Shown: in pieces, positions 3,063 through 32,157 of the stretch
How the letters are laid out: every line of letters begins with the position of its first letter
Numbering within the stretch: the stretch's first letter is position 1
DNA from: Pseudomonadota bacterium
GTDB lineage: Bacteria > Pseudomonadota > Gammaproteobacteria > Steroidobacterales > Steroidobacteraceae
NCBI GenBank assembly: GCA_018261655.1
Contig: JAGTSG010000011.1
Coordinates: forward strand, 1-39,540
Reading direction: 5' to 3'
DNA: 39,540 nt
The notes under the pieces: generated by a model
Database searches by the model: none
What the model saw: the letters and a program-made list of their open reading frames with translations, nothing else
Told to the model about the DNA's origin: nothing
Program-made: the position numbers and the translations under genes

Positions 3063-4001
3063 ATGACGGCGCTGATCTGCGGGTCCCTCGCCTACGACAC
3101 GGTCATGGTGTTTCCTGGCCGCTTCAAGGACCACATCCTGCCGGACCGGATCCACATGCTGAACGTCGCCTTCCTGGCGCCGACCCTGACGCGCTACTTC
3201 GGCGGCTGCGCCGGCAACATCGCTTACAACCTGAAGCTGCTCGGCAGCGAGGGCTATCCCTGCGGCGCGGTGGGCCACGACTTCGGGCCCTATTCGCGCT
3301 GGCTGGCCGAGAACGGCCTCTCCGAGCGGTTCGTGAAGGTCCTTGCAGACCACTACACCGCGCAGGCCTACATCACGACCGACCTCGACGACAACCAGAT
3401 CACCGCCTTCCACCCTGGCGCCATGGACCGGTCATTCACCATCCCGGTCCCCGCCGACGCCGGCATCACGATCGGCATCCTGGCCCCCGACGGGCGCGAG
3501 GGGATGATCACCCACGCCGAACAGTTCGTGACGGCCGGCATCCCGTTCGTCTTCGACCCCGGCCAGGCGATGCCGCTGTTCAGCCAGCAGGACTTCGATC
3601 GCTTCATCGACCAGGCGACCTGGATCACGGTGAACGACTACGAGGGCCAGCTGCTGCAGGAGCGCACCGGGCTGTCGGCCGCGGAGATCGCCGCGCGCGT
3701 CGAGGCGTATGTCGTGACGCGCGGCGGGGAAGGGTCGATCATCTACCTCCCCGGCGGGCGGCAGGTGGCGATCCCGCCGGTCGTCGCCGAGCGGGTCGTC
3801 GACCCGACCGGCTGTGGCGATGCCTATCGCGCCGGCCTGCTGCACGGCCTGATGCACGACATGGACTGGGAGACCACCGGCCGGGTCGCCTCGCTCATGG
3901 GCGCGATCAAGATCGCGCAGCTCGGGACGCAGCATCACCGCTTCACGCCACAGGAGTTCCGCGACCGGTTCCATGCGGCCTTCGGCTACAGGATCGGCTG
4001 A
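3063..4001 (+). CDS. PfkB-family carbohydrate/nucleoside kinase (adenosine kinase-like)
   Basis: This is a ribokinase-fold kinase of 312 residues. PfkB signature 1 is around FGGCAGNIAYNLKLLG (46-61). Signature 2 is DPTGCGDAYRAGLLHG (247-262), with Asp253 as the catalytic base and GCGD as the anion hole. This subfamily, with the N-terminal CGSLAYDTVMVFPGRF stretch, resembles bacterial proteins annotated as adenosine kinase or generic carbohydrate kinase. Adenosine is therefore the most likely substrate, but this is inferred from resemblance only. The start ATG 3063 has AAAGG seven bases upstream. The gene ends one base before the start of the tandem HtrA gene, so the two probably form an operon. 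An adenosine deaminase gene lies 14 kb away in the same window, which fits purine salvage but does not prove it. Confidence 0.85.
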   Translation: MTALICGSLAYDTVMVFPGRFKDHILPDRIHMLNVAFLAPTLTRYFGGCAGNIAYNLKLLGSEGYPCGAVGHDFGPYSRWLAENGLSERFVKVLADHYTAQAYITTDLDDNQITAFHPGAMDRSFTIPVPADAGITIGILAPDGREGMITHAEQFVTAGIPFVFDPGQAMPLFSQQDFDRFIDQATWITVNDYEGQLLQERTGLSAAEIAARVEAYVVTRGGEGSIIYLPGGRQVAIPPVVAERVVDPTGCGDAYRAGLLHGLMHDMDWETTGRVASLMGAIKIAQLGTQHHRFTPQEFRDRFHAAFGYRIG

Positions 4002-4002
4002 C

Positions 4003-17633: not shown

Positions 17634-18869
17634 CTACGAGGTCGGGTTGAGACGCCGCTCCACGGCCTCGTAGTGATCGATGACCTGGCGGACGTACTGC
17701 CGCTTTCGCTGGTAGCTGCCGGCGAAGAAGCTGCGCTTGAAGCCGTAGATGATCACCGACTTCAGGTCGTGCCGGTCGAGCCCGAGGTGAGTGCAGGCGA
17801 GCAGCAGCTCGTCGGTCACCGTGGTGTTGCTCATCAGCCGGTTGTCCGTGCAGAGGGTGGTGGACAGCCGCTGCGCGCGCAGCTTGCGGAAGGTGTGTTC
17901 CTCGAGGCTCCCGAGGTGCGGGTTCGTCTGCAGGTTGCTGGTCAGGCAGACCTCGAGCGTGATGCGTCGGTCGGCAATGTAGTTGCCGAGCCGGTCCACG
18001 TAGTGCTCACGGTCGGCGATGTCCTCGTCGCGGATGGCGTCGGGCTCGAGCAGGTAGGTGCCGTGGCCGATGCGGTCCGCGTGCAGGTCGGTGATGGCCT
18101 GGAAGATCGACTCCGGCCCATAGGCCTCGCCCGCATGCACGGTCTTCTTGAGGAAGTGGCGGTGGGCATAGTCGTAGGCCTGTTTGTGGTCGCCCGCCGG
18201 GTAGCCCGCTTCCTCGCCCGCCAGGTCGAAGCCGACCACCTGCAGGCCGTGCAGGTCGCGGGCCGTGACCGCGGCGCGCGCCAGCTCGACGGAGGCCATC
18301 GCGTACAGTTCCTTGGGGCGGGCGTAGGGATGCGCCGCGAACAGCGTGGCGTAGTACTGGCTGAAGCCCGCGGTGAACATGCGCATCGCGCAGCAGATGA
18401 TCCCGTACTCGAACGGCGGCTCGGTGCCCGCGACGATGGCGGGGCGCCGGTTGAAATCGTCGCGGGCGCGCCGGAGGCCGCGGTCCACCGCCGCAATCGC
18501 CTGCACCGCGTCGAGCCCCGGATGCACGTGAAGCTGCGGCGCGAAGCGCACTTCGAGGTAGCGGACGCCCTCGCGCTGGTTGTCCTCCGCGAGTTCTGCG
18601 GCGGCGCGCTCGAGCGCTTCGGTCGTCTGCAGGGCGGCCACGGTGTACTGGAATCCCTTCAGGTACTCCCCGAGGCTGGCATAGCGGTCCTTGAACACGG
18701 TCTCGCGCAGCCCGCCTTCGGTGTAGCTCGGCATCTCCACGCGATGCTCGCGCGCGAGCTCGATCAGCGTGGACAGGCGCAGGGAACCGTCGAGGTGCAC
18801 GTGCAGGTCGGTCTTGGGCAGTTCGGCGATGAATTCGCGCGTGATCGGCGCAGTGTCCACGTGGGGCAT
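17634..18869 (-). CDS. Adenosine deaminase family protein
   Basis: A 411-residue zinc amidohydrolase that should convert adenosine (or deoxyadenosine) to inosine. Metal and catalytic motifs are present: HVHLDGS (23-29) with two zinc histidines, FDLAGEEAGY, VHAGE (zinc His and catalytic Glu), IGHGTYLLE, and CTDNRLMSN. In the last of these the usual TDDP reads TDN, so the first Asp (zinc) is kept and the second is Asn. TDN variants are known in actinobacterial adenosine deaminases, but the substrate could also be a modified adenosine. ATG 18869 has AGGAAG five bases upstream. The length exceeds the ~330-350 of classic enzymes. Its neighbour is a divergent S41 peptidase. A PfkB kinase that may phosphorylate adenosine is elsewhere in the window. 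Confidence 0.88.
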   Translation of the reverse strand: MPHVDTAPITREFIAELPKTDLHVHLDGSLRLSTLIELAREHRVEMPSYTEGGLRETVFKDRYASLGEYLKGFQYTVAALQTTEALERAAAELAEDNQREGVRYLEVRFAPQLHVHPGLDAVQAIAAVDRGLRRARDDFNRRPAIVAGTEPPFEYGIICCAMRMFTAGFSQYYATLFAAHPYARPKELYAMASVELARAAVTARDLHGLQVVGFDLAGEEAGYPAGDHKQAYDYAHRHFLKKTVHAGEAYGPESIFQAITDLHADRIGHGTYLLEPDAIRDEDIADREHYVDRLGNYIADRRITLEVCLTSNLQTNPHLGSLEEHTFRKLRAQRLSTTLCTDNRLMSNTTVTDELLLACTHLGLDRHDLKSVIIYGFKRSFFAGSYQRKRQYVRQVIDHYEAVERRLNPTS

Positions 18870-18932
18870 CCGGGCTTCCTGGGAGGTTGCGCAGGATAAC
18901 CCGGGCGGCCGGTGGCCGTGCAGCCGACGGGC

Positions 18933-18938
18933 TATCAT
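18933..18938 (+). promoter_or_regulatory. Candidate -10 element of the S41 peptidase gene
   Basis: TATCAT (five of six) lies 33 bases before TTG 18972 in the 102-base divergent gap. No good -35 is seen 17 bases upstream, so this is a tentative assignment. Confidence 0.3.
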
Positions 18939-18971
18939 TTCAGGCCCCGACCCTGCCCAGGGAGTACAGCC

Positions 18972-20162
18972 TTGCCGAGGTGGATCCTGCGCGGCCTCGC
19001 CACGCTGCTGGCCGCAGCCGGCCTGGCGCTGGCCTGGGACGTGGCCACCTACGACGCGGCGGCGTGGCGGGCCGATTACGTCCATCTCCGGACAGAGCTG
19101 GCCCAGGGCTATGCCAACCTCGACTGGATGGTCGAGCGCCGCGGGCTCGATCCGGTGGCGCTCGACGCCGCGACCGACCGGGCGATCGCCGACGCGCATT
19201 CGCGCCTCCGCGCGATGCTGGCCCTGCGCGACTTCGTCGCGGCCTTCGACGACCCGCATCTCAGGCTGGTCGGACGGGACGGCCGCGAGATCGCGGCGCG
19301 GCCGGATCCTGGCCCGCCTGTGCCTCGCCTGCCGGTGGCGTCCTGCGCGGAGGCCGGTTATGAGGAGCAAGGGCGCGACTTCTCGCCCGCGGTGCAGCGC
19401 CTGCCGGGATGGACGCTGCTCGGCGGCGGGGAGTTTCCGAACGGGCTGGCGGGCGACCTCGGGACCTTGCGCATTGCGAGTTTCGGCGAGGACCGGTATC
19501 TCGGGTCCTGCCGCGCGGTGTTTCGCCCGGGCATGGACGAGCGGGCGCTGCAACTCGCCGTCCGCGCCCGGCTGCAACAGTCGCTGACCAGTACGATTTC
19601 CGACCTGCAGGCGCGCGGCGCCCGCCGCCTGCTGGTGGACGTGACCGGCAACGGCGGCGGGACCGAGTGGGTGGGGGAGGTGATTGCGCTGTTCACGGAT
19701 CGCGCGCTGTCACGGGCCTCTTCGCGAATCGTGGCACCGGCCTGCGACCGGTCCGGGATCTGGCGCGGAGAAGCGGTGTGTCCGGTCTTCGCCGGCGCCG
19801 GCGAGACCGCGACGATGCAGGGCACCGGTGCGTGGACCGGCCCGTTGTGGATCCTGATGGATCGCAGGACGGGCTCGGCGACCGAGGATTTCGTCGTCTG
19901 GCTGCAGCAGAACGGAGTCGCGAGGACGCTCGGCGAGCGCACGGCAGGCGCCGGCTGTGGCTACGTCGGCGGCGGCGGGCGCATCCGCCTGCAGGCTGCG
20001 CCCTTCGACGTGATGGCGCCGAACTGCGCGCGCTTCCTGCGGGACGGCACCAACGAGGTCGAAGGGATCGCGCCCGACATCGGCATTTCGCTGTCCGGGG
20101 GCGGCGCTGCGCAGCAGGCCGCGGCGCTGTGGGCGGCCATCGGCGCTGCGCCGGCGCGCTAG
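18972..20162 (+). CDS. S41-family (tail-specific protease-like) peptidase, membrane-anchored or secreted
   Basis: A 396-residue protein with an N-terminal hydrophobic segment (about 4-22) that is either a signal peptide or an anchor. The N-terminal helical part has FDDPHLRLV, recalling the DGH(L/T) stretch of S41 proteins. The protease core contains RRLLVDVTGNGGGTEW and the probable Ser nucleophile Ser302 in DRRTGSATEDFVVWLQ, followed by TLGERTAGAGCGY and a closing EVEGIAPDI. No PDZ domain is evident, unlike Prc/CtpA. TTG 18972 is preferred because AGGGAG lies upstream at good spacing; an in-frame GTG at 18912 would add an implausible hydrophilic leader. The stop overlaps the stop of the convergent OPT gene. 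The substrate is unknown. Confidence 0.82.
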   Translation: MPRWILRGLATLLAAAGLALAWDVATYDAAAWRADYVHLRTELAQGYANLDWMVERRGLDPVALDAATDRAIADAHSRLRAMLALRDFVAAFDDPHLRLVGRDGREIAARPDPGPPVPRLPVASCAEAGYEEQGRDFSPAVQRLPGWTLLGGGEFPNGLAGDLGTLRIASFGEDRYLGSCRAVFRPGMDERALQLAVRARLQQSLTSTISDLQARGARRLLVDVTGNGGGTEWVGEVIALFTDRALSRASSRIVAPACDRSGIWRGEAVCPVFAGAGETATMQGTGAWTGPLWILMDRRTGSATEDFVVWLQQNGVARTLGERTAGAGCGYVGGGGRIRLQAAPFDVMAPNCARFLRDGTNEVEGIAPDIGISLSGGGAAQQAAALWAAIGAAPAR

Positions 20163-22078
20163 GCCGGTCCGGGGCCCCGGGTCCGGCGCGTGAACCAGGC
20201 GACCAGCAGCGCAAAGGCCGCGGCTCCGAGCAGCCAGGCGCCGGTCTCGCCTGCCCAGTCGTGTCCGAGCCCGTCCGGCCTGCGGCCCAGGACGAACGCC
20301 GCGCCGGCCAGGCCCACGCCGAGCAGTCCCTCGCCGCCGACGAATCCGGAGCCCAGCAGGACGCCGCGGTCTGTCCGGGCGCCGGCTTCCGCGGCATCCC
20401 GGTCGCGCGTCAGGATCCAGCGCAGCAACCCGCCGAGGAAGATCGGCGTCATGGTGGACAACGGCAGGTACACGCCGACCGCGAACGGCAGCGAGGGAAC
20501 ACGCAGCACTTCGGCGACGAGCGCGATCCCGGCGCCGATGCCGACCAGCCCCCAGGGCAGCGACCGGTCGATCACGCCGTCGATGACGAGCTTCATCAGC
20601 GTAGCCTGCGGCGCCGGCAGGTCCCTGCCGCCGAAGCCGAAGGTCTCGGCCAGCAGCAGCACGGACAGGCAGACGAAGGTGGCCGACGTCAGCACGCCGG
20701 CCAGCTGTGCGAGCTGCTGGTGGCGCGGCGTTGCGCCGAGCAGGTAGCCGGTCTTCAGGTCCTGCGCCATGTCGCCCGAGATCGAGGCCGCAATGGCCAC
20801 GACGCAGCCCACCATCAGTGCCGCGGCCTTGCCGGTGGCATCGGTCCAGCCGATGGCGAGGAAGACCGTGGCCGTGCCGAGCAGCGCGGCGATCGTCATC
20901 CCCGAGGTCGGATTGCTGGTCACGCCAACCAGGCCGACGATGCGGGCCGCGACCGTGACGAAGAAGAAGGCGAAGACGACGACGCAGAGCGCGGCCGCGA
21001 GCTGGTGGGGCAGGCCGTCGATGACGCTGAACACCTGCGGGACCAGCGCCATCACCAGGGTGATCACGATCACTCCGGCACCAAGGAAGGCGTAGGGCAG
21101 GTCGAGCTCGGTGCGCAGCGGCTGCGCGTCATCCTTGCCGCGGGAACGGCCAAAGCGCGCGGCCCCGGCCCGGAAGCTGGCGATCATCACCGGCAGCGAG
21201 CGGACCAGCGTGATGATGCCCGCGGTCGCGACCGCACCCGCGCCGATGTAGCGAACGTAACGGTTCCAGATCTCGGCGGTGGACATGGTGGCGATCGTCT
21301 TGACCGTCTCCGGGAACAGCGGGTCGACGCGGCCCGCGCCCCACCAGGCGATATACGGGATGATCACCAGCGCGGACAGCAGGCCACCGCCCACCATGAT
21401 CGTCGCCACGCGCGGCCCGAGGATGTAGCCGACGCCGAACAGGGCGGCCGAGAGGTCCATGCTGACCTCGGCCTTCCTGGGCCAGGGCAGGGCCAGCGAC
21501 AGGCTGTCCGGGACGACCTTGAGCCAGGAGGTCAGCGCCTTGAAGGCGGCGCCGAGCCCGAGTCCGAGGAACACGTGGCCGGCCTGGGTGCCGCCGCCCT
21601 GGCTCGCCTTCAGCACCTCGGCGCAGGCCGTGCCCTCCGGGTAAGGCAGGCGGCCATGCTCCTGGACGATCAGGTACTCGCGCAACGGGATCATGAACAG
21701 CACGCCGAGCACGCCGCCGCACAGTGCGAGCAACACCATCTGCAGCAGGTCGGGCGGCATGCCCCACATGAAGAGCGCCGGCAGCGTGAAGATCACGCCG
21801 GAGGCCAGCGAGCTCGAGGCCGAGCCGGCGGTCTGCGACAGGTTGGCCTCGAGGATGGTGCCCTCGCGGCCGGAGCGTCGCAGCAGGCGGAACATCGCCA
21901 CCGTCATGACCGCCACGGGAATCGACGTGCTGACGGTGAGGCCGGCGCGCAGGCCGAGATAGGCGTTCGCCGCGCCGAAGACGATGCCGAAGAGGATGCC
22001 GAGGCCGATGGCCTTTACCGTCAGCTCGGGAACGGCGCGGTCCGCCGGCACGTAGGGGCGAGGAGCGTCAGGCGACAT
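20159..22078 (-). CDS. OPT-family oligopeptide transporter
   Basis: An inner-membrane transporter of 639 residues with about 15-16 predicted helices. Its family imports oligopeptides in symport with protons; some members carry metal chelates. Prokaryotic OPT signatures are GLRAGLTVSTSIPVAVM near residues 47-63, NPTSGMTIAALLG, and SGDMAQDLKTGYLLGATPRH. ATG 22078 begins the conserved N-terminus (RPYVPADRAVPELTVKAI) and overlaps the end of trmO by 11 bases, so it may be coupled to that gene. It is the last gene in a minus-strand run of peptidases, which supports a peptide substrate: imported peptides could be cut by the M20, S9 or Tld enzymes. Metal-chelate transport remains possible. Confidence 0.9.
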   Translation of the reverse strand: MSPDAPRPYVPADRAVPELTVKAIGLGILFGIVFGAANAYLGLRAGLTVSTSIPVAVMTVAMFRLLRRSGREGTILEANLSQTAGSASSSLASGVIFTLPALFMWGMPPDLLQMVLLALCGGVLGVLFMIPLREYLIVQEHGRLPYPEGTACAEVLKASQGGGTQAGHVFLGLGLGAAFKALTSWLKVVPDSLSLALPWPRKAEVSMDLSAALFGVGYILGPRVATIMVGGGLLSALVIIPYIAWWGAGRVDPLFPETVKTIATMSTAEIWNRYVRYIGAGAVATAGIITLVRSLPVMIASFRAGAARFGRSRGKDDAQPLRTELDLPYAFLGAGVIVITLVMALVPQVFSVIDGLPHQLAAALCVVVFAFFFVTVAARIVGLVGVTSNPTSGMTIAALLGTATVFLAIGWTDATGKAAALMVGCVVAIAASISGDMAQDLKTGYLLGATPRHQQLAQLAGVLTSATFVCLSVLLLAETFGFGGRDLPAPQATLMKLVIDGVIDRSLPWGLVGIGAGIALVAEVLRVPSLPFAVGVYLPLSTMTPIFLGGLLRWILTRDRDAAEAGARTDRGVLLGSGFVGGEGLLGVGLAGAAFVLGRRPDGLGHDWAGETGAWLLGAAAFALLVAWFTRRTRGPGPA

Positions 22079-22946
22079 GCGTCGGCCCGTCTTCAACAGC
22101 CGCAGCCGGTCCGGTGGACTCCCGCCACGCGGCGACGTACTCACGGTGCGTGGCGAGCGCCGGCTCGCCGGCCGCGTCGCGGCGTGCCAGCTGGGCCGGG
22201 CGATAGCCCGATTCGATGGCAGTCACCTGTGCCTCGCTTCCCTGCACCTCGAAGAGGATCCGCCAGTCCTTCACCGCGAGCCGGAATCCGCCGGCCTCGC
22301 GCTTGATGCGGCGGTAGGGATGCGGCTGCGGCCCGAGACCCAGCGTCGCGATGATCCGCTCGCGGATCGCGAGGCCGGTCCGCGCCTCGATCCACGCGGC
22401 CTGCCGCGCGGCGAGGGGCGAGAACGCGACGGCAAACCGCGCCACCGGGTCCGCGGGGATCGTTTCGCCCTGTGCGGCACCCGCCTCGTCGAGCCAGCCG
22501 CTCCTCGCGGCCGGGTGCGCGTCGGCATAGGCGACGTAGGGCTTGATGTCGAGCACCGGCGTGCCGTCGACCATGTCGAGGTCGCGGACGTGGAGCACCA
22601 GGCCGTCCACGCGCTCGAGTCGCACCGCCGACAGGCCGATCGGATTGGGGCGGTGCGGCGAGCGCGTGGCGAACACGCCCTTGCGGCCGGACGTGCTGCG
22701 CGGCGGCAGCACCTTGGGCCGCCACGAAGGGTTGAGGTGGAACCAGTAGATCACCCAGAGGTAGTCCCAGCCCTCCAGGTCCTCGAGCGCGTGCTCGAAA
22801 TTCCGGCCGGGAAACAGCTCGATGGTGCCGCGCGTGCCGGCCGCGGCACGCGGCTGCCGGGCGGCCTCGACCTTCGAGACCAGCGGGCCGTGCACGATGC
22901 CGATCGGGTCGATGGTCAATGGCCCTGTCTGCCGTGTCCCGGTCAT
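22068..22946 (-). CDS. trmO: tRNA (N6-threonylcarbamoyladenosine(37)-N6)-methyltransferase
   Basis: A SAM-dependent enzyme that methylates t6A37 to m6t6A37 in a tRNA-Thr, formerly TsaA/YaeB/UPF0066. It has 292 residues, somewhat longer than the ~235 of E. coli TrmO. The beta-barrel catalytic domain (about 8-150) carries the family block TRSPHRPNPIGLSAVRL (94-110) and the DYLWVIYWFHLN strand. The C-terminal region with KDWRILFEVQGSEAQVTAI fits the TrmO C-terminal domain. ATG 22946 is the first start before the conserved GPLTIDPIGIVHGPL. It has no ribosome site but has a TACAAT hexamer six bases upstream. The window also encodes TsaC, which supplies the t6A substrate. The 3' end overlaps the OPT start by 11 bases. 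Confidence 0.9.
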   Translation of the reverse strand: MTGTRQTGPLTIDPIGIVHGPLVSKVEAARQPRAAAGTRGTIELFPGRNFEHALEDLEGWDYLWVIYWFHLNPSWRPKVLPPRSTSGRKGVFATRSPHRPNPIGLSAVRLERVDGLVLHVRDLDMVDGTPVLDIKPYVAYADAHPAARSGWLDEAGAAQGETIPADPVARFAVAFSPLAARQAAWIEARTGLAIRERIIATLGLGPQPHPYRRIKREAGGFRLAVKDWRILFEVQGSEAQVTAIESGYRPAQLARRDAAGEPALATHREYVAAWRESTGPAAAVEDGPTHVA

Positions 22947-22952
22947 GGGGCC

Positions 22953-22958
22953 ATTGTA
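22953..22958 (-). promoter_or_regulatory. Candidate -10 element just upstream of trmO (leaderless?)
   Basis: TACAAT on the minus strand (five of six) lies six bases from ATG 22946, so the transcript would begin at about the start codon. No ribosome site or convincing -35 is visible. Spacing is the same as at tsaC. Confidence 0.35.
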
Positions 22959-23007
22959 CGGGACGGCCCGCAGCGGACGGGGCGGTGCTGACGGCCGCGG
23001 CCCGCGC

Positions 23008-24171
23008 TCAGGCGTTGCCGAGGCAGTGCTCGACCAGCCGCACCCAGTAGGACGCGCCGAGCGCCAGGATGTCGTCGTTGAAGTCGTAGTGCGGGTTGTG
23101 GAGCATGCAGCCGCCCTCGCCGGGCCCGTTGCCGATGAAGACGTAGCAGCCCGGCCGTGCCTGCAGCATGAAGGCGAAGTCCTCGCCGCCCATGGTGGGC
23201 TCGCATCCCCAGTGCACATTGCCCGCGCCGACGAGCGACTCCAGCACCTCGCGGGCGATCCGTGACTGCGGCTCGCTGTTGACGAGGGCAGGGTAGCGGC
23301 GCTCGTAGCGCACCGACACCCCGCAGCCGTGGGCCGCCGCAATGCCGCTGCTGAGTCGCCGCAGGCCGTCTTCCAGCAGGTCCTGCACGGCGGGGGTGAA
23401 GGCGCGGGTGGTACCGCGGATCACGACCTCGGAAGGGATGACGTTCCAGGTGTCTCCCGCATGGAACTGGGTGACGCTCACCACGCCGGAGTCGAGCGGG
23501 CCCACGTTGCGGCTCGTGAGCGTCTGCAGGGCCTGCACCAGCGCGCTGCCGGCGACCACGGGGTCGATGCCCTGGTGCGGCATGGCCGCGTGGGCGCCGC
23601 GTCCCGTGACCAGGATCTCGAACAGGTTGAAGCCGGCCATCATGGGTCCCGGCCGCAACCCGAACTGTCCCGCCGGCATCCCGGGCCAGTTGTGCATGCC
23701 GTAGACCGCCTCGACGGGAAAGCGGTCGAACAGGCCCTCGCGCACCATCACCTGCCCGCCGCCCTCGTTTTCCTCGGCTGGCTGGAAGATGAAGTGCACC
23801 GTCCCGTCGAAGCGGCGCGTCTCGGCGAGGTAACGCGCGGCGCCGAGCAGCATCGTCGCGTGCCCGTCGTGCCCGCAGGCGTGCATCCGGCCGGCGTGGC
23901 GCGAGCGGTGGTCGAAGCCGTTGCGCTCCTCGATCGGCAGCGCGTCCATGTCGGCACGCAGGCCGATGGCGCGCGTGCCGGAGCCCGCGCGCAGGGTCCC
24001 GACCACGCCGGTCCGGGCGAGCCCGCGATCCACGTCGATGCCGAGCCGCTCGAGTTCCGCTGCGATGCGCCCCGCGGTGCGGTGCTCCTCGAAGGCGACT
24101 TCAGGGTGCGCGTGCAGGTCGCGGCGGAACGCCGCGAGCTCGTTCCCGAAGGCGCCGATGGCGCCGATCAC
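23008..24171 (-). CDS. M20 family amidohydrolase (hippurate hydrolase-like)
   Basis: A 387-residue metal-dependent amidohydrolase of the M20D group, which cleaves N-acyl amino acids or small peptide-like amides. Metal-site motifs are LRADMDALPIEE, MHACGHDGHATMLLGAARYL, FQPAEENEGGG and the late GGEDFAFML. The lid/dimerisation domain contains GRGAHAAMPHQGIDPV. No signal peptide is present, so it should be cytoplasmic. GTG 24171 is the first common start before the conserved FRRDLHAHPEVAFEEHRTAG. It lacks a ribosome site; a CTG at 24201, 30 bases upstream with AGAGGGAA before it, is possible. It follows the TldE/PmbA gene by only 38 bases and so is probably in the same operon. Confidence 0.88.
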   Translation of the reverse strand: MIGAIGAFGNELAAFRRDLHAHPEVAFEEHRTAGRIAAELERLGIDVDRGLARTGVVGTLRAGSGTRAIGLRADMDALPIEERNGFDHRSRHAGRMHACGHDGHATMLLGAARYLAETRRFDGTVHFIFQPAEENEGGGQVMVREGLFDRFPVEAVYGMHNWPGMPAGQFGLRPGPMMAGFNLFEILVTGRGAHAAMPHQGIDPVVAGSALVQALQTLTSRNVGPLDSGVVSVTQFHAGDTWNVIPSEVVIRGTTRAFTPAVQDLLEDGLRRLSSGIAAAHGCGVSVRYERRYPALVNSEPQSRIAREVLESLVGAGNVHWGCEPTMGGEDFAFMLQARPGCYVFIGNGPGEGGCMLHNPHYDFNDDILALGASYWVRLVEHCLGNA

Positions 24172-24209
24172 CCCCGCGTGCCTGGCGGCGTCCAGTCTCG
24201 TCTTCCCTC

Positions 24210-25526
24210 TCAGGCGCCCGAGAAATCCACGCCCGAGAACACCAGCGACGGCGCCAGGGTGGTCGAGTACGGGTACGGGTCGTTGCCGACGAGCTCGAGG
24301 CGGCTGAACAGGCTGCGCAGGTTCCCGGTGACGTTCATCTCGCCCACGGGACGGCCGATGCGCCCGTTCTCGATGACGTGGCCGCGCAGGCCGAGCGAAA
24401 AGTCGCCGGTCGTGCCGTCCGTATTGCCGCCGAGCCAGGAGGTAACGTAGATGCCGTTGCCGACCTCGGCCAGCAGCTGCTCGAGAGAGTGCCGGCCGGT
24501 CTGCACGCGCAGGTTGGACCGCGAGCCGGTCGTCGGCGCGAGGCCGGCCTTGCGGCCGTAGTAAGTGTCCACGTAGAGGTTGCGGACGACGCCGGCCTCG
24601 ATGATGGGCAGGACCTTCGCCGAGATGCCCTCGCTGTCGTAGTGACGCGATCCGAGCCCGCGCGGGATCAGCGGGTCGTCGATGAGCGTCAGCTTGTCGC
24701 TGAAGGCCTTCTGGCCGGTCAGCCCGGCCCAGAATGACCGGCCCTGCTGGATGCTCTGGGCGTTGGCGGGGCCGAGCAGGCGCCCGACCAGCGACGCCGC
24801 CGCGCGCGCGTCGACGACCATGGCGGTCCTGGAGGTAGGGCCCTTCTCTGAATCGAGCCTGGCAAGCGCGCGGTCGAGCGCGACCTGGGCCACCTTGCCC
24901 GGCTGGGGCAGGGCCTCGAGGTGCGTCCCACCCGCATAGAAGCCGTCCTCGGCGCGGCGGTCGCCCCGGTCTTTCAGCGTGACGCTGGCGCCGTACCAGC
25001 AGTACGTGGACTCCTGCATCCCGAGGAAGCCGTTGCTGCTGGCAGAAGCGGACTGGCTCGACCCGTCTTCGACGGCGCCGGTAGCCGAAATGACCCGCTC
25101 ATGCGCAGCTGCGACTTCGTCGATCGCCCTGCACCACGCGACCCGCTGGTCGCGGTCGATCTGCTGCACCCGCGCGTCGACCAGGTCGAGCGGCTGGCCG
25201 GGCCGGTCGCGGAACAGCTCAGGCGGGGTGATCTGCCGGCTCGGGTCGGGCTCCAGGGCGCGCGTGATCGCCACCGCCTCGGCGAGGAAGCCCTTCATCC
25301 GTTCCGGCTCGAGGTCCGTCGTCTGGTGGCTCGAATAGCGGCCGTTCGCGTAGACCTGCACGGCCAGCGCGCGCGAAGTCGTGTCCTGCACCTTCTCGAG
25401 CGCGCCCTTGCGGTATTCGAACTGGACGCTGCGCTGCTGGACGGCGGTGGCCCAGACGTCATCCGCGCCCGCCTTGCGGGCGAGCTCGACGGCCTCGGCG
25501 GCCCGATTGCTGAGTTCAGCCGACAT
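24210..25526 (-). CDS. TldE/PmbA-like metallopeptidase regulatory subunit
   Basis: A 438-residue member of the TldD/PmbA family without the HExxxH zinc motif, hence the TldE (PmbA) type. In E. coli, TldD and TldE form a heterodimer that degrades unfolded peptides, trims microcin B17 precursor and degrades CcdA. Family features are the N-terminal EYRKGALEKVQDTTSRAL, SSSNGFLGMQESTYCWYGAS-like central sequence, ISAKVLPIIEAGVVRNLYVD, and GEMNVTGNLRSLFSRLELVG close to the C-terminus. A strong ribosome site (GGGAGG) precedes ATG 25526, which overlaps the end of tldD by 11 bases. That supports coupled synthesis of the pair. There is no signal peptide, although its partner has a Tat-type one. Confidence 0.9.
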   Translation of the reverse strand: MSAELSNRAAEAVELARKAGADDVWATAVQQRSVQFEYRKGALEKVQDTTSRALAVQVYANGRYSSHQTTDLEPERMKGFLAEAVAITRALEPDPSRQITPPELFRDRPGQPLDLVDARVQQIDRDQRVAWCRAIDEVAAAHERVISATGAVEDGSSQSASASSNGFLGMQESTYCWYGASVTLKDRGDRRAEDGFYAGGTHLEALPQPGKVAQVALDRALARLDSEKGPTSRTAMVVDARAAASLVGRLLGPANAQSIQQGRSFWAGLTGQKAFSDKLTLIDDPLIPRGLGSRHYDSEGISAKVLPIIEAGVVRNLYVDTYYGRKAGLAPTTGSRSNLRVQTGRHSLEQLLAEVGNGIYVTSWLGGNTDGTTGDFSLGLRGHVIENGRIGRPVGEMNVTGNLRSLFSRLELVGNDPYPYSTTLAPSLVFSGVDFSGA

Positions 25527-27057
25527 TTTCGCCTCCCACCGTCATCCGCGACACGAGCACCGTCGGGATGCCCTGCGAGACCGGCACGCCCTGGCCGTTC
25601 TTGCCGCAGGTCCAACCGCCGGTGTCGAGCCGCGCGTCATTTGCGACCATCGTGATCCGCTTCAGCGATTCCGGTCCGTTGCCGATGATGTTCACGTCCT
25701 TGATCGGCGCGGTCAGCTTGCCGTCCTCGATCATCCAGCCGTTCTTGACGTAGAAGGTGTAGTCGCCGGCGCCGATCTGCACCTGGCCATTGGTGAAGGT
25801 CTCGGCCAGGATCCCGCGGTCCACCGAGGCGATGATCTCCTCCCGCGTGTGCGGGCCGGCCTCCATGAAGGTGCAGCTCATGCGCGGCATCGGCGCGTGC
25901 TTGTAGGACTCGCGCCGCCCTGATCCTGTCGGCTTCAAGCCGTACTGCCGCGCGCTGATGCGGTCGTGCAGGTAGGACTTCAGGATGCCGTTCTCGACCA
26001 GGACCGTCCTGCCGGCCGGGTTGCCTTCGTCGTCGTAGTTCAGCGCGCCGCGTTCGCCCGGGATCGTGGCCTGGTCCACGATCGTGATGAACGGCTCCGC
26101 GACCTGCTTGCCGATCATGTCGGAGTAGATGCTGGTGCCCTTGCGGTTGAAGTCGGCCTCCATGCCGTGGCCGATCGCCTCGTGCAGCAGGATGCCGCTC
26201 GAGCCGGACGCGAGGACCACCGGCATCTCGCCCGCCGGCGGGCGCTTCGCGTCGAACAGGACGACCGTCCGGTCGACCGCTTCGCGCGCCATGGCGGTCA
26301 GGCGCTCCTCGGTGTACCAGTCGAATTCCTGGCGGGCGGCGATATTCGAATAGCCCGTCTGCACCTCGTCGCCCTTGCGTGCGGTCACGACCGTGTACAT
26401 CGTGGCCATGGGCCGGTGGTCCATGACGAGGCTGCCGTCTAGCGTCGCGATCATCACGCGCTCGTCCACGTCGGTCCAGTAGACCGAGACCTTCTCGACG
26501 GCGGGGTCGAACGACTTCGCCTTCGACTCGACGAACTTCAGGATCGGCAGCTTGCGGTCGATGCCCACCTCGGACCACGGCACGCTGACGGTATAAAGCC
26601 CGCCGAGGTCCCGGGGTGCGAAGGCCTGCGGTGCGGCGACCCGGCCGCCGGCGGCGATCGCCGCAGCAGTGCGCGCGGCGGACAGCATGGACGCGAGGGT
26701 CAGGTCCTCCGTGAATGCGTACCCGGTCTGTTCACCGATCACGACACGCAGGCCGACGCCCTGGTCGATGCCGGAGAAGGCCCGGGACACGATGCCGTCC
26801 TCGAGCGTCAGGGTATTGCGGCGGCTGTGCTGGAAGTACAGGTCCGCCGCATCCGCGCCATTGGCCGTCATCTCCGACATCACGCGCGCGACCGTCGCCT
26901 GGTCGACGCCGAACCACTCCATGAACGGGTTCTCCGGCAGCTTGTCGGCGACGCTGACGGCGCGCTGCACCCCGCAGGCGCCGAGGAAGGCCGGCATGGT
27001 CAGCGCTGCGCTGCCCGCGGCCATCGTTCCCAGGAATTCCCTTCTGGTCCGGTTCAT
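25516..27057 (-). CDS. TldD-like zinc metallopeptidase with Tat-lipoprotein signal
   Basis: This is the catalytic partner of TldE: 513 residues. The zinc site is HEAIGHGMEADF (292-303), an HExxxH motif with His292, Glu293 and His297. The family's C-terminal GGWTCGKNGQGVPVSQG offers the cysteine that is the third ligand in TldD. The N-terminus is unusual. TRREFLG is a twin-arginine motif, followed by a hydrophobic stretch and a lipobox LGAC (25-28), so the protein is predicted to be exported folded by Tat and possibly lipidated. E. coli TldD is cytosolic. ATG 27057 is supported by GGGGAG upstream and starts exactly at the Tat signal. It shares 11 bases with the TldE gene. A 183-base gap lies upstream. 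Confidence 0.9.
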   Translation of the reverse strand: MNRTRREFLGTMAAGSAALTMPAFLGACGVQRAVSVADKLPENPFMEWFGVDQATVARVMSEMTANGADAADLYFQHSRRNTLTLEDGIVSRAFSGIDQGVGLRVVIGEQTGYAFTEDLTLASMLSAARTAAAIAAGGRVAAPQAFAPRDLGGLYTVSVPWSEVGIDRKLPILKFVESKAKSFDPAVEKVSVYWTDVDERVMIATLDGSLVMDHRPMATMYTVVTARKGDEVQTGYSNIAARQEFDWYTEERLTAMAREAVDRTVVLFDAKRPPAGEMPVVLASGSSGILLHEAIGHGMEADFNRKGTSIYSDMIGKQVAEPFITIVDQATIPGERGALNYDDEGNPAGRTVLVENGILKSYLHDRISARQYGLKPTGSGRRESYKHAPMPRMSCTFMEAGPHTREEIIASVDRGILAETFTNGQVQIGAGDYTFYVKNGWMIEDGKLTAPIKDVNIIGNGPESLKRITMVANDARLDTGGWTCGKNGQGVPVSQGIPTVLVSRMTVGGENVG

Positions 27058-27240
27058 GGCATCTCCCCTCGTTGTCTCCCGTGCCCGCCCCCCATGGAGC
27101 GCCGACGGGCCCACCGGTTCCCTGCCACCGGGCGGGCCCTTACCTATGATGCGGCAGGACGCCGGATGGTTGCATGTGCGCGGCGCTTTCGTCGCCCGAC
27201 CGATGCTGCAGCGCAGCGACGGTCGCAGCGCCGACCTGCC

Positions 27241-29931
27241 CTAGTCCTTGCCCCGGACGATGGACAGGGCGAACCGATCGCCGTCGAGGTAGCGATGGGC
27301 CACCTCGCGCAGTTCCCCGATCGTGACCTGGCCGGCCGCCTCGGCGGTCTGCCGGGTGAAGTCGAGCGGCAGCCCGGAGAACCAGTTCTGCGCCAGGTCG
27401 GCCGACTGCGCCGCATTGGTCTGCAGGGCGATCCGCGTCGACCCGGCGAAGTACTTCTGCGCCAGGGCCAGGTCCTCGGCGCTGAACCCGTCCTCGTCGA
27501 GCCGCCGGATTTCCGCCAGCAGCGCCTCACGCGCCTCGGTCTCCTTGCTGGCGTCGGTGGCGATGTAGGCGATGAATGCGCCGGCCCGCGCATTCGGCGC
27601 ATCGGTGGCGAACACCGTGTAGGCCAGCGAGCGACGGCCGCGCAGCTCCGCGAAAAACGTTCCCGCCAGTCCGGAGGTCACATAGCGCACGAGGCGCAGG
27701 CGCGGCCAGTCGGGGTGGGACCGCTGGATGGCCGGAAAAGCATAGACCAGCGCCGATTGCTGGCGGTCGCGGTATTCGATGACGTCGACCCGGGCCGGCA
27801 GCGCCGGCGGCGCGGCCAGTGGTGCCATCACGCCAGTCCGCCCCGGCAGGCCGGCCACGGCCTTCTCGACTGCCGCGCGCGCGGCCTCCGCCGAGATGTC
27901 ACCGACCACCACCACGACCGCACCGTCCGCGGCGACCTGCGCCGACCACCAGTCCCGGACCTCGGATGAGCCGAGGGTCGCGAGCGATGACTCGTACCCG
28001 TCCGCCGGCAGGCCGTAGGGGTGGCTGCGGTAGAGCGCCTCCATGGCCAGCTGCAAGGGCCGCTGGGTGGAGGAATCGTAGGCCCGCTTGATCGCGGCCA
28101 GCTGCAGCCGCCGTTCGTCGCCGACGCCGCTCTCGGGGAAGACGGGATTCGCCAGCATGTCCGCCAGCAGTTCGAGCCCCGCCCCGAAGTTCTTCGACGG
28201 TACGGCGAGGCTCAGGCCGAAGTAGTCGGCCGCGACCTCTACGCCGAGGCTGGTGCCCAGGTACTCGATCGCCCGGTCGATCTCGGCGCCGGACCTGCTG
28301 CGGGTGCCTTTCTGCAGCGAGCGCACCATCAACCGCGTGATGCCGGCGTTGCGGCTGCTCTCGGCCGTCCGCCCGCCCGGAAAGAAGACGGCGGTCGAGA
28401 CGATCGGCGCTCCGGGTTGCGGCTTGACGATCAGGGTCATGCCGTTGCCGAGCCGGATCTCGGTGGCCGCGGCCGCGGCGGCAGCCGGCTGCACGGGCCG
28501 GGACGGCGGGCCAGCCGGCACCGCGGGCAGCGCCGCCGGCACCGGCGTAGCCGCTTCGCGCACGGCCGCCAGCGCCGTCGCCCGGTCCGGCAGGCGGGTT
28601 CCGGTCGGCGCGTAGTGGTAGAGGGTCAGCTGCCCGAGCCCGAGGTAGCGGCGCGCCACCCGCGTGATGTCCTCCGCCGTCAGCGCATTGAGTCTCCGCA
28701 GCCGGTCGGGCAGCGCCTCGTAGCCATAATGGGCCTCGGAACTGGCCAGCGTCGTCGCCTGGCCCAGCGCGTCCTCGAGGGCGAAGGCCAATGCCGCCTC
28801 CACGCCGTTCCTGGCGCGCTGCAGCTCGTAGGCGGTCGGTCCGTGGGCCTTGAGTCGCTCGACTTCGGCGACGACCCGGCGGTCGGCCTCGACCCGGTTC
28901 CCTTCGTCGAAGGAACTCTGCACGAACAGGACCCCGACGTCGTCGAAGGCATAGTGGGCAGCGGACGAGGTCGCCGCGGCGCCCTGGCCCACGACGTTGA
29001 CGAACAGGCGTGACGAACGGCCCTCGCCCAGGATGCTGGCCAGCACGTCGAGGGCGATCTCGTCCGGATGGCCGACGCCCACGGTCTGCCAGCCGAGCAC
29101 CGAATAGCCCTGCGACATGTCGGCCGTCGAATGGCCGTACCGGAACTCCTCCTGCGGCGGCTCGGCCGGGCCGCGATCCTTCACCAGCTGGCCGCGCGGC
29201 ATCGTCCCGAAGGTCTCGTGCGCGATCGCGGCGGCCTCCTCGTGGGTCACGTCGCCGGCGATGGACAGGATGATGTTCCCGGGCCGGTACAGGGTCTCGA
29301 AGAAAGCGACCAGGTCGTCACGGTTGATGTTGCGCAGCACCTCGTTCGAGCCGATGCGCCAGCGCCGCATGCGATGCTGGGTGAACTGGGTCGCGAACAT
29401 CCGCTCGAGCGCCACTGCGGGCGCGTTGTCGAGCTTCCGGTTCGACTCCTCGATGACGACCTCGGCCTCCTTCCCGAGCTCGCCGGGATCGAACAGGGGG
29501 TTCATCACCGCATCTGCCTGGATCTCGACCGCGCGCCGGAAGCCTTCCTTCGGCACGACGATGTAGTAGTTGGTCGAGTCGTAGATGGTTCCCGCGTTGG
29601 TCTGCCCGCCGAGGGCGGAAATCTCGCGGGCGATCTGCTCCGAGCCGGGGAAGCGCTTCGACCCCTTGAAGAACATGTGCTCGAACAGGTGCGCCATCCC
29701 TGCCACTTCGTCGGGCTCGTTGAAATAACCGGCCTTGATCCAGGTATTGATGGCCACCACGCCCGAGCCGGGGCTTTCGCGCGTGATCAGCGTCAGGCCG
29801 TTCGGAAGGACCTGCTTGCGCACGTCCTGCAGGAAGGCGTCGAGCAGCGAACCTTCGCCTCCGGCCGCAGCGCGGGCGACGGCCGTGAAGCCGAGCAGGG
29901 CCAGGGTGGCGAACGTACGGATCCACGGCAC
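27241..29931 (-). CDS. M16-family zinc metalloprotease, exported
   Basis: An 896-residue pitrilysin-type protease. A signal peptide (about 1-22) precedes two M16 modules. The inverted zinc motif HLFEHMFF has ligands His81 and His85 with catalytic Glu84. The third ligand is Glu161 or Glu162 in EVVIEESNRKLDN, about 77 residues later as in the family. The second half (about 485-896) lacks the zinc motif and corresponds to the inactive module (IRLGNGMTLIVKPQPGAPIV...). Such two-module periplasmic enzymes degrade oligopeptides. The start is GTG 29931, supported by GGAAG seven bases upstream. The gene follows the S9 peptidase by 33 bases on the same strand, so the two are probably cotranscribed. 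Confidence 0.92.
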   Translation of the reverse strand: MPWIRTFATLALLGFTAVARAAAGGEGSLLDAFLQDVRKQVLPNGLTLITRESPGSGVVAINTWIKAGYFNEPDEVAGMAHLFEHMFFKGSKRFPGSEQIAREISALGGQTNAGTIYDSTNYYIVVPKEGFRRAVEIQADAVMNPLFDPGELGKEAEVVIEESNRKLDNAPAVALERMFATQFTQHRMRRWRIGSNEVLRNINRDDLVAFFETLYRPGNIILSIAGDVTHEEAAAIAHETFGTMPRGQLVKDRGPAEPPQEEFRYGHSTADMSQGYSVLGWQTVGVGHPDEIALDVLASILGEGRSSRLFVNVVGQGAAATSSAAHYAFDDVGVLFVQSSFDEGNRVEADRRVVAEVERLKAHGPTAYELQRARNGVEAALAFALEDALGQATTLASSEAHYGYEALPDRLRRLNALTAEDITRVARRYLGLGQLTLYHYAPTGTRLPDRATALAAVREAATPVPAALPAVPAGPPSRPVQPAAAAAAATEIRLGNGMTLIVKPQPGAPIVSTAVFFPGGRTAESSRNAGITRLMVRSLQKGTRSRSGAEIDRAIEYLGTSLGVEVAADYFGLSLAVPSKNFGAGLELLADMLANPVFPESGVGDERRLQLAAIKRAYDSSTQRPLQLAMEALYRSHPYGLPADGYESSLATLGSSEVRDWWSAQVAADGAVVVVVGDISAEAARAAVEKAVAGLPGRTGVMAPLAAPPALPARVDVIEYRDRQQSALVYAFPAIQRSHPDWPRLRLVRYVTSGLAGTFFAELRGRRSLAYTVFATDAPNARAGAFIAYIATDASKETEAREALLAEIRRLDEDGFSAEDLALAQKYFAGSTRIALQTNAAQSADLAQNWFSGLPLDFTRQTAEAAGQVTIGELREVAHRYLDGDRFALSIVRGKD

Positions 29932-29964
29932 GGGAGGGCTTCCGCAGTCAGCAGCGAGTGCGTG

Positions 29965-32157
29965 TCATTCGGCCGCCGCGCCGGGCTGGAAGCCCGGGTA
30001 CCCCATCTGCCAGAGCAGGAAGGCGTAGACGTCGGCGGACTCGCCGAGCTGCTGCGACACCGTCGAGCCGATGCCGTGGCCGGCCTTGTCGTCGAGCCGC
30101 AGCAGGACGGGACGACCGCTCGAGCTCGCCGCCTGGAAGCGCGCGCCGGTCTTCAGCGTGTGCCAGATGTCCACGCGCGGGTCGTTGATGCCGTGGACGA
30201 AGATCACCGCCGGGTAGGGCACGCCTTCACGGATGCTCTGGTAGGTGCTCATCTCCAGCAGGCTGCGGAACTGCTGCGGGTCCGCCACGGTGCCGAACTC
30301 GGAGATGTTGGTGATGCCGTTGGCGCTGAACTCGGCCCGCGTCGTGTCGGTGGAGCCGACGTGAATCACCCCGGCGCGGAACAGGTCGGGCCGCTCGGTG
30401 ACCGCCCGGCCGGCGAAGATTCCGCCGGCGCTGCCGCCACGGACGGCCAGGCGCCCGGGCGACGTATAGCCGTTCTTCACCAGGTACTCGGCGCAGGCAA
30501 TGCCGTCCTTCCAGGTGTTGGGCTTGTTCGCGCCGGTGCCGGCCAGCCGCCACTCGCTGCCCAGCTCGCCGCCGCCGCGGACGCCGGCGATCGCATAGAC
30601 GCCCCCCTGTTCGAGCCAGGCGTAGACGGTCGTGCTGAAGTTCGGGTCGCTGCTGATCCCGTAGCTGCCGTAGCCGTAGACGATCGCCGGGCGCTGGCCG
30701 TCGCGCTCGACGCCGCGCTTCGAGAGGATGGTCAGCGGCACTTTCACGCCGTCGTGGCTCGGGACCATCACGCGCTCGACCACGACGTCGGGCAGGGAGC
30801 TGATGTCGCCGGCCTCGGCGAGGCCCGAGGGCGTGCCCTTGCCGGTCTTCGCGTCCCAGACCAGGACCTGGGGCGCGTCGGTCCATGACGTCGCATAGAC
30901 GAAGACGCCGTCGCGCAGCTGGGCGCGGTCGCCGTACACCGACACCAGGCCCTCGATCGGCAGCCTGATCGTCTCGAGCCTGGCGCCGCCGTAGGGCTGG
31001 CGGGCGAGGCCGACGCCAAAGGGATTGCGCAGGGACACGTAGATCGCGTCGTGTCCGAGTGAGAATCCGGCGATCACGCCCTCCTGCTGCGGGACGACTT
31101 CGGTCATCGTCGACAGCTCGGGCTTGCGCAGGTCGAGCCGCGTGATGCGGAAGCGCGGCGCGCCCGCATGGGTGTACAGGTACAGGTCGTTGCCGCGCAG
31201 CGCGACGTCGGCAATGCCGTCGGCCGTGCTCGCGATGCGCCGCCAGGGCGCGTTCTTCGTGCCCAGCTGGTCGAGCGGCAGCACGAACAGGTTGTCGTCG
31301 CGCTCAGTCGTGTCGTTGGTGCTGGCGACCACCCACGGGCTGCCCGGCTGGAAGATGAGGGTCGCGTTGTCGAGCCGGCGCAGGCCGATCGCGGGCAACA
31401 GCTCACGCCCGAAAACCGCGGTGGCGGTGGCCTCCGGCTTGCCAGGCTCGAGCATGTAGACGACCGGGTCGAGGTATCGCTCGGTCGCCGGCATGCCGGG
31501 CTTCATTTCCTGCAGGCGATTGAAGACGACGTAGCGGTTGTCCGGCGTCCACGAGACGCCGCCGTCCGGTGCGCGCGTGACCGGCTCGCCGACCTGCCTG
31601 CCGGTCGCCACGTCCATGACGTAGAGCGACGCGTCCTCGGAACCGCCGGCCGAGATGCCGTAGGCGAGGTACTTGCCGTCCCAGGAGGGCACGAAGTAGT
31701 TCACCGCGTGCGGGATGCCGGTCGCGGCCTGCAGGGCCTCCGGGTCGACCAGCAGGCGCTCCTCGCCGCCGAGCCCTTCGCGCAGGTAGACCTTGAACAC
31801 GTTCTGCCCCAGCCCGCGCTTGGAATAGAACAGCCGGCCGCCGGGCGTCTCGACGATGTCCGAGACGGTGGCCGCGCGGCGGCCCTGCAGTGCGACCAGG
31901 CGCTCCAGCAACTTGTCGCGGCCGGGGATGGCATCCAGCGTCGCGCGGGCATGGGCGCCCTGTGCCTTCATCCACTCCTGAACGACGGGATCCGCCACGT
32001 CTTCCATGTAGCGGTAGGGGTCGGTGATCTTCGTGCCGAAGAAATCCTCGGTCACAGGCTTGACCGGGGCGGCAGACGGCGAAGCCTGCGCGGCGGTGAG
32101 CAGCAGCGAGGAGGACACGGCGGCCAGGCACAGGGCCCGGAGGGTGGCTAAGGACAT
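29965..32157 (-). CDS. Prolyl oligopeptidase family serine peptidase (S9A), exported
   Basis: A 730-residue enzyme that cuts after proline in short peptides. The predicted signal peptide covers about 1-26 (AQAS cleavage region). The mature N-terminus KITDPYRYMEDVADPVVQEW is the family hallmark. A beta-propeller (about 100-450) gates the alpha/beta-hydrolase domain. The catalytic Ser is in VRGGSAGGIFAGRA, Asp in GINDPRVDI and His in DKAGHGIG; YGYGSYGIS contributes the oxyanion region. ATG 32157 is chosen because GGAG lies six bases before it; an in-frame ATG at 32169 is possible. It is the first gene of the long minus-strand run and probably shares a transcript with the M16 gene. Secreted prolyl oligopeptidases are typical of peptide-scavenging gammaproteobacteria. 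Confidence 0.93.
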   Translation of the reverse strand: MSLATLRALCLAAVSSSLLLTAAQASPSAAPVKPVTEDFFGTKITDPYRYMEDVADPVVQEWMKAQGAHARATLDAIPGRDKLLERLVALQGRRAATVSDIVETPGGRLFYSKRGLGQNVFKVYLREGLGGEERLLVDPEALQAATGIPHAVNYFVPSWDGKYLAYGISAGGSEDASLYVMDVATGRQVGEPVTRAPDGGVSWTPDNRYVVFNRLQEMKPGMPATERYLDPVVYMLEPGKPEATATAVFGRELLPAIGLRRLDNATLIFQPGSPWVVASTNDTTERDDNLFVLPLDQLGTKNAPWRRIASTADGIADVALRGNDLYLYTHAGAPRFRITRLDLRKPELSTMTEVVPQQEGVIAGFSLGHDAIYVSLRNPFGVGLARQPYGGARLETIRLPIEGLVSVYGDRAQLRDGVFVYATSWTDAPQVLVWDAKTGKGTPSGLAEAGDISSLPDVVVERVMVPSHDGVKVPLTILSKRGVERDGQRPAIVYGYGSYGISSDPNFSTTVYAWLEQGGVYAIAGVRGGGELGSEWRLAGTGANKPNTWKDGIACAEYLVKNGYTSPGRLAVRGGSAGGIFAGRAVTERPDLFRAGVIHVGSTDTTRAEFSANGITNISEFGTVADPQQFRSLLEMSTYQSIREGVPYPAVIFVHGINDPRVDIWHTLKTGARFQAASSSGRPVLLRLDDKAGHGIGSTVSQQLGESADVYAFLLWQMGYPGFQPGAAAE

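Follow-up and report, generated by a model that had tools for sequence, protein, structure and literature searches.

A second, paralogous TldD/TldE pair with a twin-arginine lipoprotein signal on TldD, probably exported to the cell envelope together with a signal-less TldE

A contig of a Pseudomonadota bacterium placed in the Steroidobacteraceae (JAGTSG010000011.1, assembly GCA_018261655.1) carries two adjacent genes of the TldD/TldE metallopeptidase family, both on the minus strand of the 39,540-nucleotide stretch that was analysed as a whole (hereafter, the window). The first, a tldD-like gene at 25516..27057, codes for the catalytic subunit (513 amino acids), and the second, a tldE-like gene at 24210..25526, codes for a signal-less partner of 438 amino acids. 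The genes overlap by 11 bases (25516..25526), and the ATG of tldE sits inside the final 11 bases of tldD. TldD opens with the residues MNRTRREFLGTMAAGSAALTMPAFLGACGVQ, and its N-terminus, MNRTRREFLGTMAAGSAALTMPAFLGACG (MNRTRREFLG...FLGACG), reads as a twin-arginine translocation (Tat) lipoprotein signal peptide. This signal covers residues 1-27 (26977..27057, minus strand), with the arginine pair at residues 5-6, and runs into a lipobox (L25-G26-A27-C28) whose Cys28 (26974..26976, minus strand) is the predicted lipidation site and is followed by Gly at position +2. The initial annotation had described this Tat and lipobox start, the signal-less TldE and the 11-base overlap, all of which we confirm from the sequence.

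To place the pair in context, orthologous loci were retrieved from genome contigs with two peptide patterns derived from an alignment of window-like sequences. Of 499 confirmed matches, which came from at least 586 candidate stretches, the best 80 were retained, and the sample leans to window-like sequences. L002, L004 and L114 were left out of the sequence sets; L114 is cut before its N-terminus, and N-termini were readable in 79 of the 80 loci. The zinc motif of the window TldD, HEAIGH (residues 292-297, 26167..26184, minus strand), keeps both histidines and the glutamate in all 75 TldDs compared. The same holds for the individual residues H292, E293, H297, E300, D302 and R381/R382, and C484 and K486 are present in 72 of the 75, the remaining three being truncated by contig ends. 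Cys484 (25606..25608, minus strand) is the equivalent of E. coli TldD Cys454, the third metal ligand. HExxxH was found neither in the window TldE nor in any of the 67 partner TldEs, a set made of the window protein and 66 of the 68 TldEs adjacent to a Tat-bearing TldD (L054 and L066, which are too short, were excluded).

The family assignment is supported by domains and fold. All three PmbA_TldD domains score above the Pfam cut-off in both proteins, and the window TldD aligns to E. coli TldD from residue 55 onward (E 1.6e-107). AlphaFold models of each subunit, built from 35 (TldD) and 34 (TldE) sequences, reached a mean predicted local distance difference test (pLDDT) of 79.5 for TldD, with residues 1-40 under 50, and of 96 for TldE. 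In Foldseek comparisons, the TldD model matched E. coli TldD (5njc) with template modelling (TM) scores of 0.84/0.90, and the TldE model gave TM scores of 0.95 with 1VPB and 0.94 with E. coli TldE. Thus, one subunit has the HExxxH motif, remote Cys ligand, PmbA_TldD domains and fold of TldD (M103), and the other has the same fold without the zinc motif, as in TldE (PmbA).

The E. coli TldD/TldE (PmbA) pair (PDB 5NJ5 and related entries, MEROPS M103) is treated as cytosolic. The window pair shares its domains, HExxxH and remote Cys, predicted fold and the Glu, Asp and Lys that hold the clamp, and in both pairs TldE is devoid of HExxxH. However, the two pairs fall in separate clades, at about 40% (TldD) and 28% (TldE) identity, and the window pair differs in its Tat lipoprotein signal, its overlapping genes and its scores below the NCBIfam equivalog cut-offs. 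The window TldD obtains 411.7 bits with the canonical TldD model NF008006 (curated cut-off 513), and the window TldE 166.3 bits with the canonical PmbA model NF008268 (cut-off 438). The window genome, which is 74.6% complete, contains four PmbA_TldD matches: the window pair, a canonical TldD without a signal (contig C65), and a PmbA of the canonical type (contig C26). Since canonical TldD and TldE are found elsewhere in the genome, the window pair is an extra, paralogous one. The different use of the TldD/TldE machine put forward in the initial annotation therefore holds in the sense of a separate paralogous clade beside the canonical pair. The genome also codes for Tat machinery, with TatC and two TatA/B genes on contig C18.

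The twin-arginine signal is widely conserved, beyond what chance would give. Two tests were applied, the first on motif and the second on motif plus hydrophobicity: the presence of RRx[FLMIVWY] at most 60 residues before the domain, and a stricter version that also demands a short uncharged hydrophobic stretch. The motif was found in 74 of the 79 readable orthologues, and 72/79 passed the stricter test, L089 and L106 failing it despite their RR motif. The same stricter test was negative in canonical TldDs (0/29), partner TldEs (0/67) and canonical TldEs (0/43), and a similar N-terminus occurs in 10 of 332 non-membrane open reading frames (ORFs) of the related genome G055. Both R5 and R6 are invariant across 35 Tat orthologues chosen as a diverse set. 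The initial annotation had named an absent or unconserved Tat-like N-terminus in homologues as fatal to its proposal; barring 5/79, this outcome was not observed. From these sequence patterns, TldD is very probably exported by Tat. An N-terminus acting as an uncleaved membrane anchor, or as a Tat-like sequence without function, would leave the pair at the inner membrane face or in the cytoplasm, and the existence of Tat-less members in the same subfamily would fit such a situation. This is nonetheless improbable in view of the conservation of RR across phyla, the residues after RRx (F in 65 of 75 signals and then L in 65 of 75, counting the 74 orthologues and the window), the Cys that follows the hydrophobic stretch in most Tat-bearing orthologues and the presence of Tat genes.

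Of the 74 Tat-bearing orthologues, 64 have this lipobox Cys after the signal; a script recognised 63 of them, and L095 was identified by eye. Asp never occurs among the 64 +2 residues that were scored. In E. coli, the +2 residue of a lipoprotein decides between inner and outer membrane. With a residue other than Asp at +2, and Gly in the window TldD, this rule predicts the outer membrane. The envelope anchoring suggested in the initial annotation is predicted for the window TldD and for 64/74 orthologues from their lipobox, but it is not general in the subfamily, as 10/74 have none. An N-terminal tether is plausible on structural grounds, because the helices of the N-terminal domain are packed on the outer surface of the E. 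coli heterodimer, according to the excerpts of PMC5810440 on which we draw here and below.

The partner gene is nearly always adjacent. In 68 of 71 informative Tat loci (the 74 minus three cut by contig ends), a signal-less TldE lies directly downstream of TldD, with an overlap of 11 bases in 40 loci, 8 bases in 25 and another arrangement in 3. The survey recommended in the initial annotation, that of Tat-TldDs paired with a TldE lacking a signal, thus gave a consistent picture, with no Tat-positive TldE among 67. Moreover, the first helix in the model of the window TldE starts at residue 2, so that a signal could not be accommodated before it. The active site of the E. coli enzyme is enclosed in a TldD/TldE heterodimer of about 65 Å, and TldD is active only with TldE (PMC5810440). 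Given this obligate heterodimer and the conserved pairing, TldE is likely co-exported with TldD: with an export-and-anchor tag on TldD and none on TldE, the pair probably leaves together.

We therefore favour, with a probability of roughly 0.7, the view that this second TldD/TldE pair is a paralogue dedicated to the envelope, which would be assembled inside the cell, co-exported by Tat and anchored by its lipobox. In this scheme, both proteins would be made from the overlapping genes, would acquire their fold and their metal in the cytoplasm, and would form the usual hollow heterodimer before export. Directed by the twin-arginine signal of TldD, the complex would then cross the membrane by the Tat translocase, and TldE would be carried along as a hitchhiker. 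TldD would be lipidated and cut at Cys28, and the chamber would be tethered to an envelope membrane via a linker of about 15-25 residues; in lineages without a lipobox, the complex would instead be free in solution beyond the inner membrane. Once outside the cytoplasm, unfolded peptides would be trimmed from their N-termini by the conserved HExxxH/Cys site.

Several observations weigh against this proposal. Five of the 79 orthologues (L091, L100, L110, L111 and L113) have no RR motif, which means that a cytoplasmic location is also open to the pair. The ten Tat-bearing orthologues that lack a lipobox have signals ending in small residues, in the style of signal peptidase I substrates as judged by eye. 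The main evidence against an obligate partnership comes from L062, L063 and L071, in which a Tat-TldD with its zinc ligands has no adjacent TldE. Short tldE remnants persist in L062 and L063, and elsewhere in the three genomes we found only homologues of 25-30% identity, the best of which are TldE-like (26-27%). The mature TldD of L062/L063 still looks constrained, with a ratio of nonsynonymous to synonymous substitution rates (dN/dS) of 0.13, which compares with 0.09 for canonical TldD and 0.20 for canonical TldE of the same two genomes. The first pairs examined had hinted at relaxed selection on TldD after the loss of TldE; matched pairs and same-genome controls failed to bear this out for L062/L063, and the idea was rejected. 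Faster change after the loss is seen in L071 only, whose TldD shows a dN about three times that between relatives keeping TldE, with dS saturated. In addition, a TldD homodimer from Sulfolobus is reported as active (quoted in PMC5810440).

These cases give some room to a scenario in which TldD is exported alone and acts in the envelope as a homodimer, TldE remaining in the cytoplasm to homodimerise or to pair with canonical TldD. Besides the three lineages that keep Tat-TldD alone, two of them with TldD still constrained, it would account for a TldE devoid of any signal, and both E. coli TldD and TldE can homodimerise (PMC5810440). On the other hand, it is at odds with the inactivity of E. coli TldD without TldE reported in the same source, with a dedicated TldE that is adjacent in 68/71 loci, 65 of them with an 8- or 11-base overlap, and with partner TldEs forming their own clade beside the TldD clade. 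A canonical TldE is, besides, already present in the window genome, and the accelerated TldD of L071 also weighs against this scenario. Overall, we regard the export of TldD alone as unlikely, and favour co-export of the assembled pair.

The amino acid composition of partner TldEs was also considered. A classifier trained on the 332 ORFs of G055 reached a cross-validated area under the curve of 0.84; it was trained on labels given by a signal rule of our own making, and the Tat-TldD of G055, labelled cytosolic by that rule, was removed before rerunning it. Partner TldEs have a mean score of 1.60 (n=67, export-like) versus -0.13 for canonical TldEs (n=43), and a mean of 1.7 versus 4.6 cysteines. 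However, the partners of Tat and Tat-less TldDs score alike (1.19, n=24, versus 1.14, n=4; p 0.92; the 24 were chosen outside Woeseiaceae and Chromatiaceae), a further point against the co-export proposal. Only Cys counts separate the two groups (1.25 versus 2.75, p 0.008), and even these do not distinguish the two TldEs of the window genome, which both contain 2 Cys within the portion scored though their scores are 1.47 and -0.01. As Tat and Tat-less partners do not differ in composition, the classifier is not independent evidence for co-export and we give it little weight.

A clear orthologue, at 80-82% identity, was found in 2 of 58 other relatives (G041 and G055). At E <= 1e-140, an orthologue was present in 1/368 other genomes of the class and in 0/397 other genomes of a phylum sample, and in 58 of 107 genomes of the family of G055 (27 of the 45 most complete), which we infer to be Woeseiaceae. 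The best 80 loci come from Woeseiaceae, Chromatiaceae, Sedimenticolaceae, Planctomycetota and Myxococcota, including five Nannocystis. Orthologues thus occur in Pseudomonadota, Myxococcota and Planctomycetota, and a sister pair in Parabacteroides adds a fourth phylum. L086 and L103 lie on contigs titled Klebsiella pneumoniae; their TldD groups with those of environmental bacteria and the titles are probably wrong. Among same-genus genomes, the intact pair is absent from five others (66-96% complete). In one of these, G005 (L211, G005:C90, ~659-817), all that comes after the M16 peptidase gene is the final ~50 codons of tldE, an apparent deletion of tldD together with most of tldE, for which an assembly join is possible. 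Such a joint loss would speak for the paired model. On account of the missing pairs, a mis-binned contig was considered as an origin of the window pair and rejected: an M16 orthologue at 76% and the tldE remnant in G005 argue that the contig (C17) belongs.

TldD and TldE each form clades apart from the canonical ones. In a quick tree, a fully supported branch separates the 80 subfamily TldDs (75 Tat and 5 Tat-less) from 29 canonical TldDs. In Parabacteroides distasonis (WP_010183233.1 / WP_211744342.1), a TldD that starts with MNINRRDFIK...LLGSC is followed by a signal-less TldE. These proteins are 41% (TldD) and 35% (TldE) identical to those of the window, and their genes are 1 base apart whereas the window genes overlap. 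A smaller tree places the pair outside the window clade, with its TldD sister to the subfamily (92/84) and its TldE sister to the partner TldEs (100/98), although the software flags a long branch to the outgroup and an atypical composition of the Parabacteroides rows. Because this sister pair carries the signal, Tat-less members are most simply taken as losses, although four of the five lie at the base of the subfamily. Two assemblies contain both Tat and Tat-less copies of this same TldD/E subfamily (L076/L091 and L101/L111).

A second and distant clade of Tat-TldDs was also observed (L118, L119 and L123, from two other families of the order). They start with MERRDFLK or MDRRRFLK, have a HESVGH motif and are followed by a signal-less TldE-like gene, as in the window. 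Unlike the window TldD, they share only about 26% identity with canonical TldD and show no lipobox. Their Tat signals were read by eye, and with script-chosen starts 0/3 passed the stricter test.

The genes around the window pair are not conserved with it. The same-strand run consists of an S9 peptidase, an M16 peptidase, tldD, tldE and an M20 hydrolase, with an OPT transporter at a greater distance; in the interval 17634-32151, the minus-strand genes bordering the pair code for the S9, M16 and M20 peptidases, for the OPT oligopeptide transporter and for an adenosine deaminase-like protein, and a TrmO/TsaA-like ORF was recognised by eye between M20 and OPT. Eight neighbour proteins of the window were compared by tblastn with the 80 orthologous loci, whose flanks extend to 6 kb at most and are often shorter at contig ends. 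M16, M20 and OPT were beside the pair in 0/80 loci, and S9 in one (L087, 35% identity). The periplasmic peptide pathway read from the M16 and S9 neighbours in the initial annotation is consequently not supported. In Woeseiaceae loci, the genes next to the pair resemble, as judged by eye, LemA/DUF2207, rhomboid, LysE and PxpA-like genes. Elsewhere in the window are a trypsin-like protease with PDZ domains of the HtrA/Deg type (3973-5877) and a protein with DUF3413 and sulfatase domains (33922-35796), which resembles YejM/PbgA.

This variation between lineages would also suit an exported pair that is not a general degrader and whose role in the envelope is the maturation of a single dedicated peptide or the cleavage of some other amide. 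Some relatives of TldD/E act in lincosamide biosynthesis. Characterised TldD/E proteins mature ribosomally synthesised and post-translationally modified peptides and are thought to have several roles, as excerpts of PMC10885120 state. Among ORFs of at least 150 amino acids beside the pair, a size at which a short precursor would be missed, we saw neither a conserved gene for a precursor nor a conserved biosynthetic cluster, and E. coli TldD/E binds peptides without sequence specificity (PMC5810440). A dedicated substrate is therefore possible but doubtful, and we prefer general peptide trimming as the putative activity of the envelope pair.

The proposed export route has parallels. In Tat hitchhikers such as the HyaA/HybO hydrogenases, formate dehydrogenase and PaoABC, the signal is borne by one subunit and the complex is assembled before export (excerpts of PMC4273604 and PMC10924467). 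PaoABC, of 135 kDa, is exported by Tat in this way (PMC4273604), and a similar arrangement has been proposed for a hydrogenase that is a Tat lipoprotein and whose partner bears no signal (PMC10924467). These known cargoes are redox enzymes, whereas that of the window would be a chambered metalloprotease, whose export is deduced from sequence. TldD/E is said to occur in about 60% of bacterial genomes (PMC5810440). Among the matches listed in titles and abstracts of the open-access literature, a scope outside which most subscription journals fall, no exported TldD/E was described.

By sequence, the closest solved relative of the window TldE is 1VPB (BT3649 of Bacteroides thetaiotaomicron; E 1.6e-77), the match to E. 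coli TldE being weaker (E 5e-43). 1VPB is also very closely related to the TldE of Parabacteroides (E 1.9e-202) and may thus represent the hitchhiking subunit of an exported pair. On balance, it seems somewhat more likely than not that an old TldD/E branch, found in no fewer than four phyla, is a proteolytic chamber that Tat exports whole and that is tethered to the envelope, 1VPB then being a solved structure of its exported TldE half. If so, Tat hitchhiking would extend past the redox enzymes cited above, a chambered protease would be delivered to the envelope already assembled, and the 2004 Bacteroides structure 1VPB would gain a context. The tractable strain B. thetaiotaomicron VPI-5482 has a close relative of the TldE half. 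Moreover, an exported branch beside a cytosolic one would separate the two compartments genetically, so that the envelope function of TldD/E could be tested by deleting one pair.

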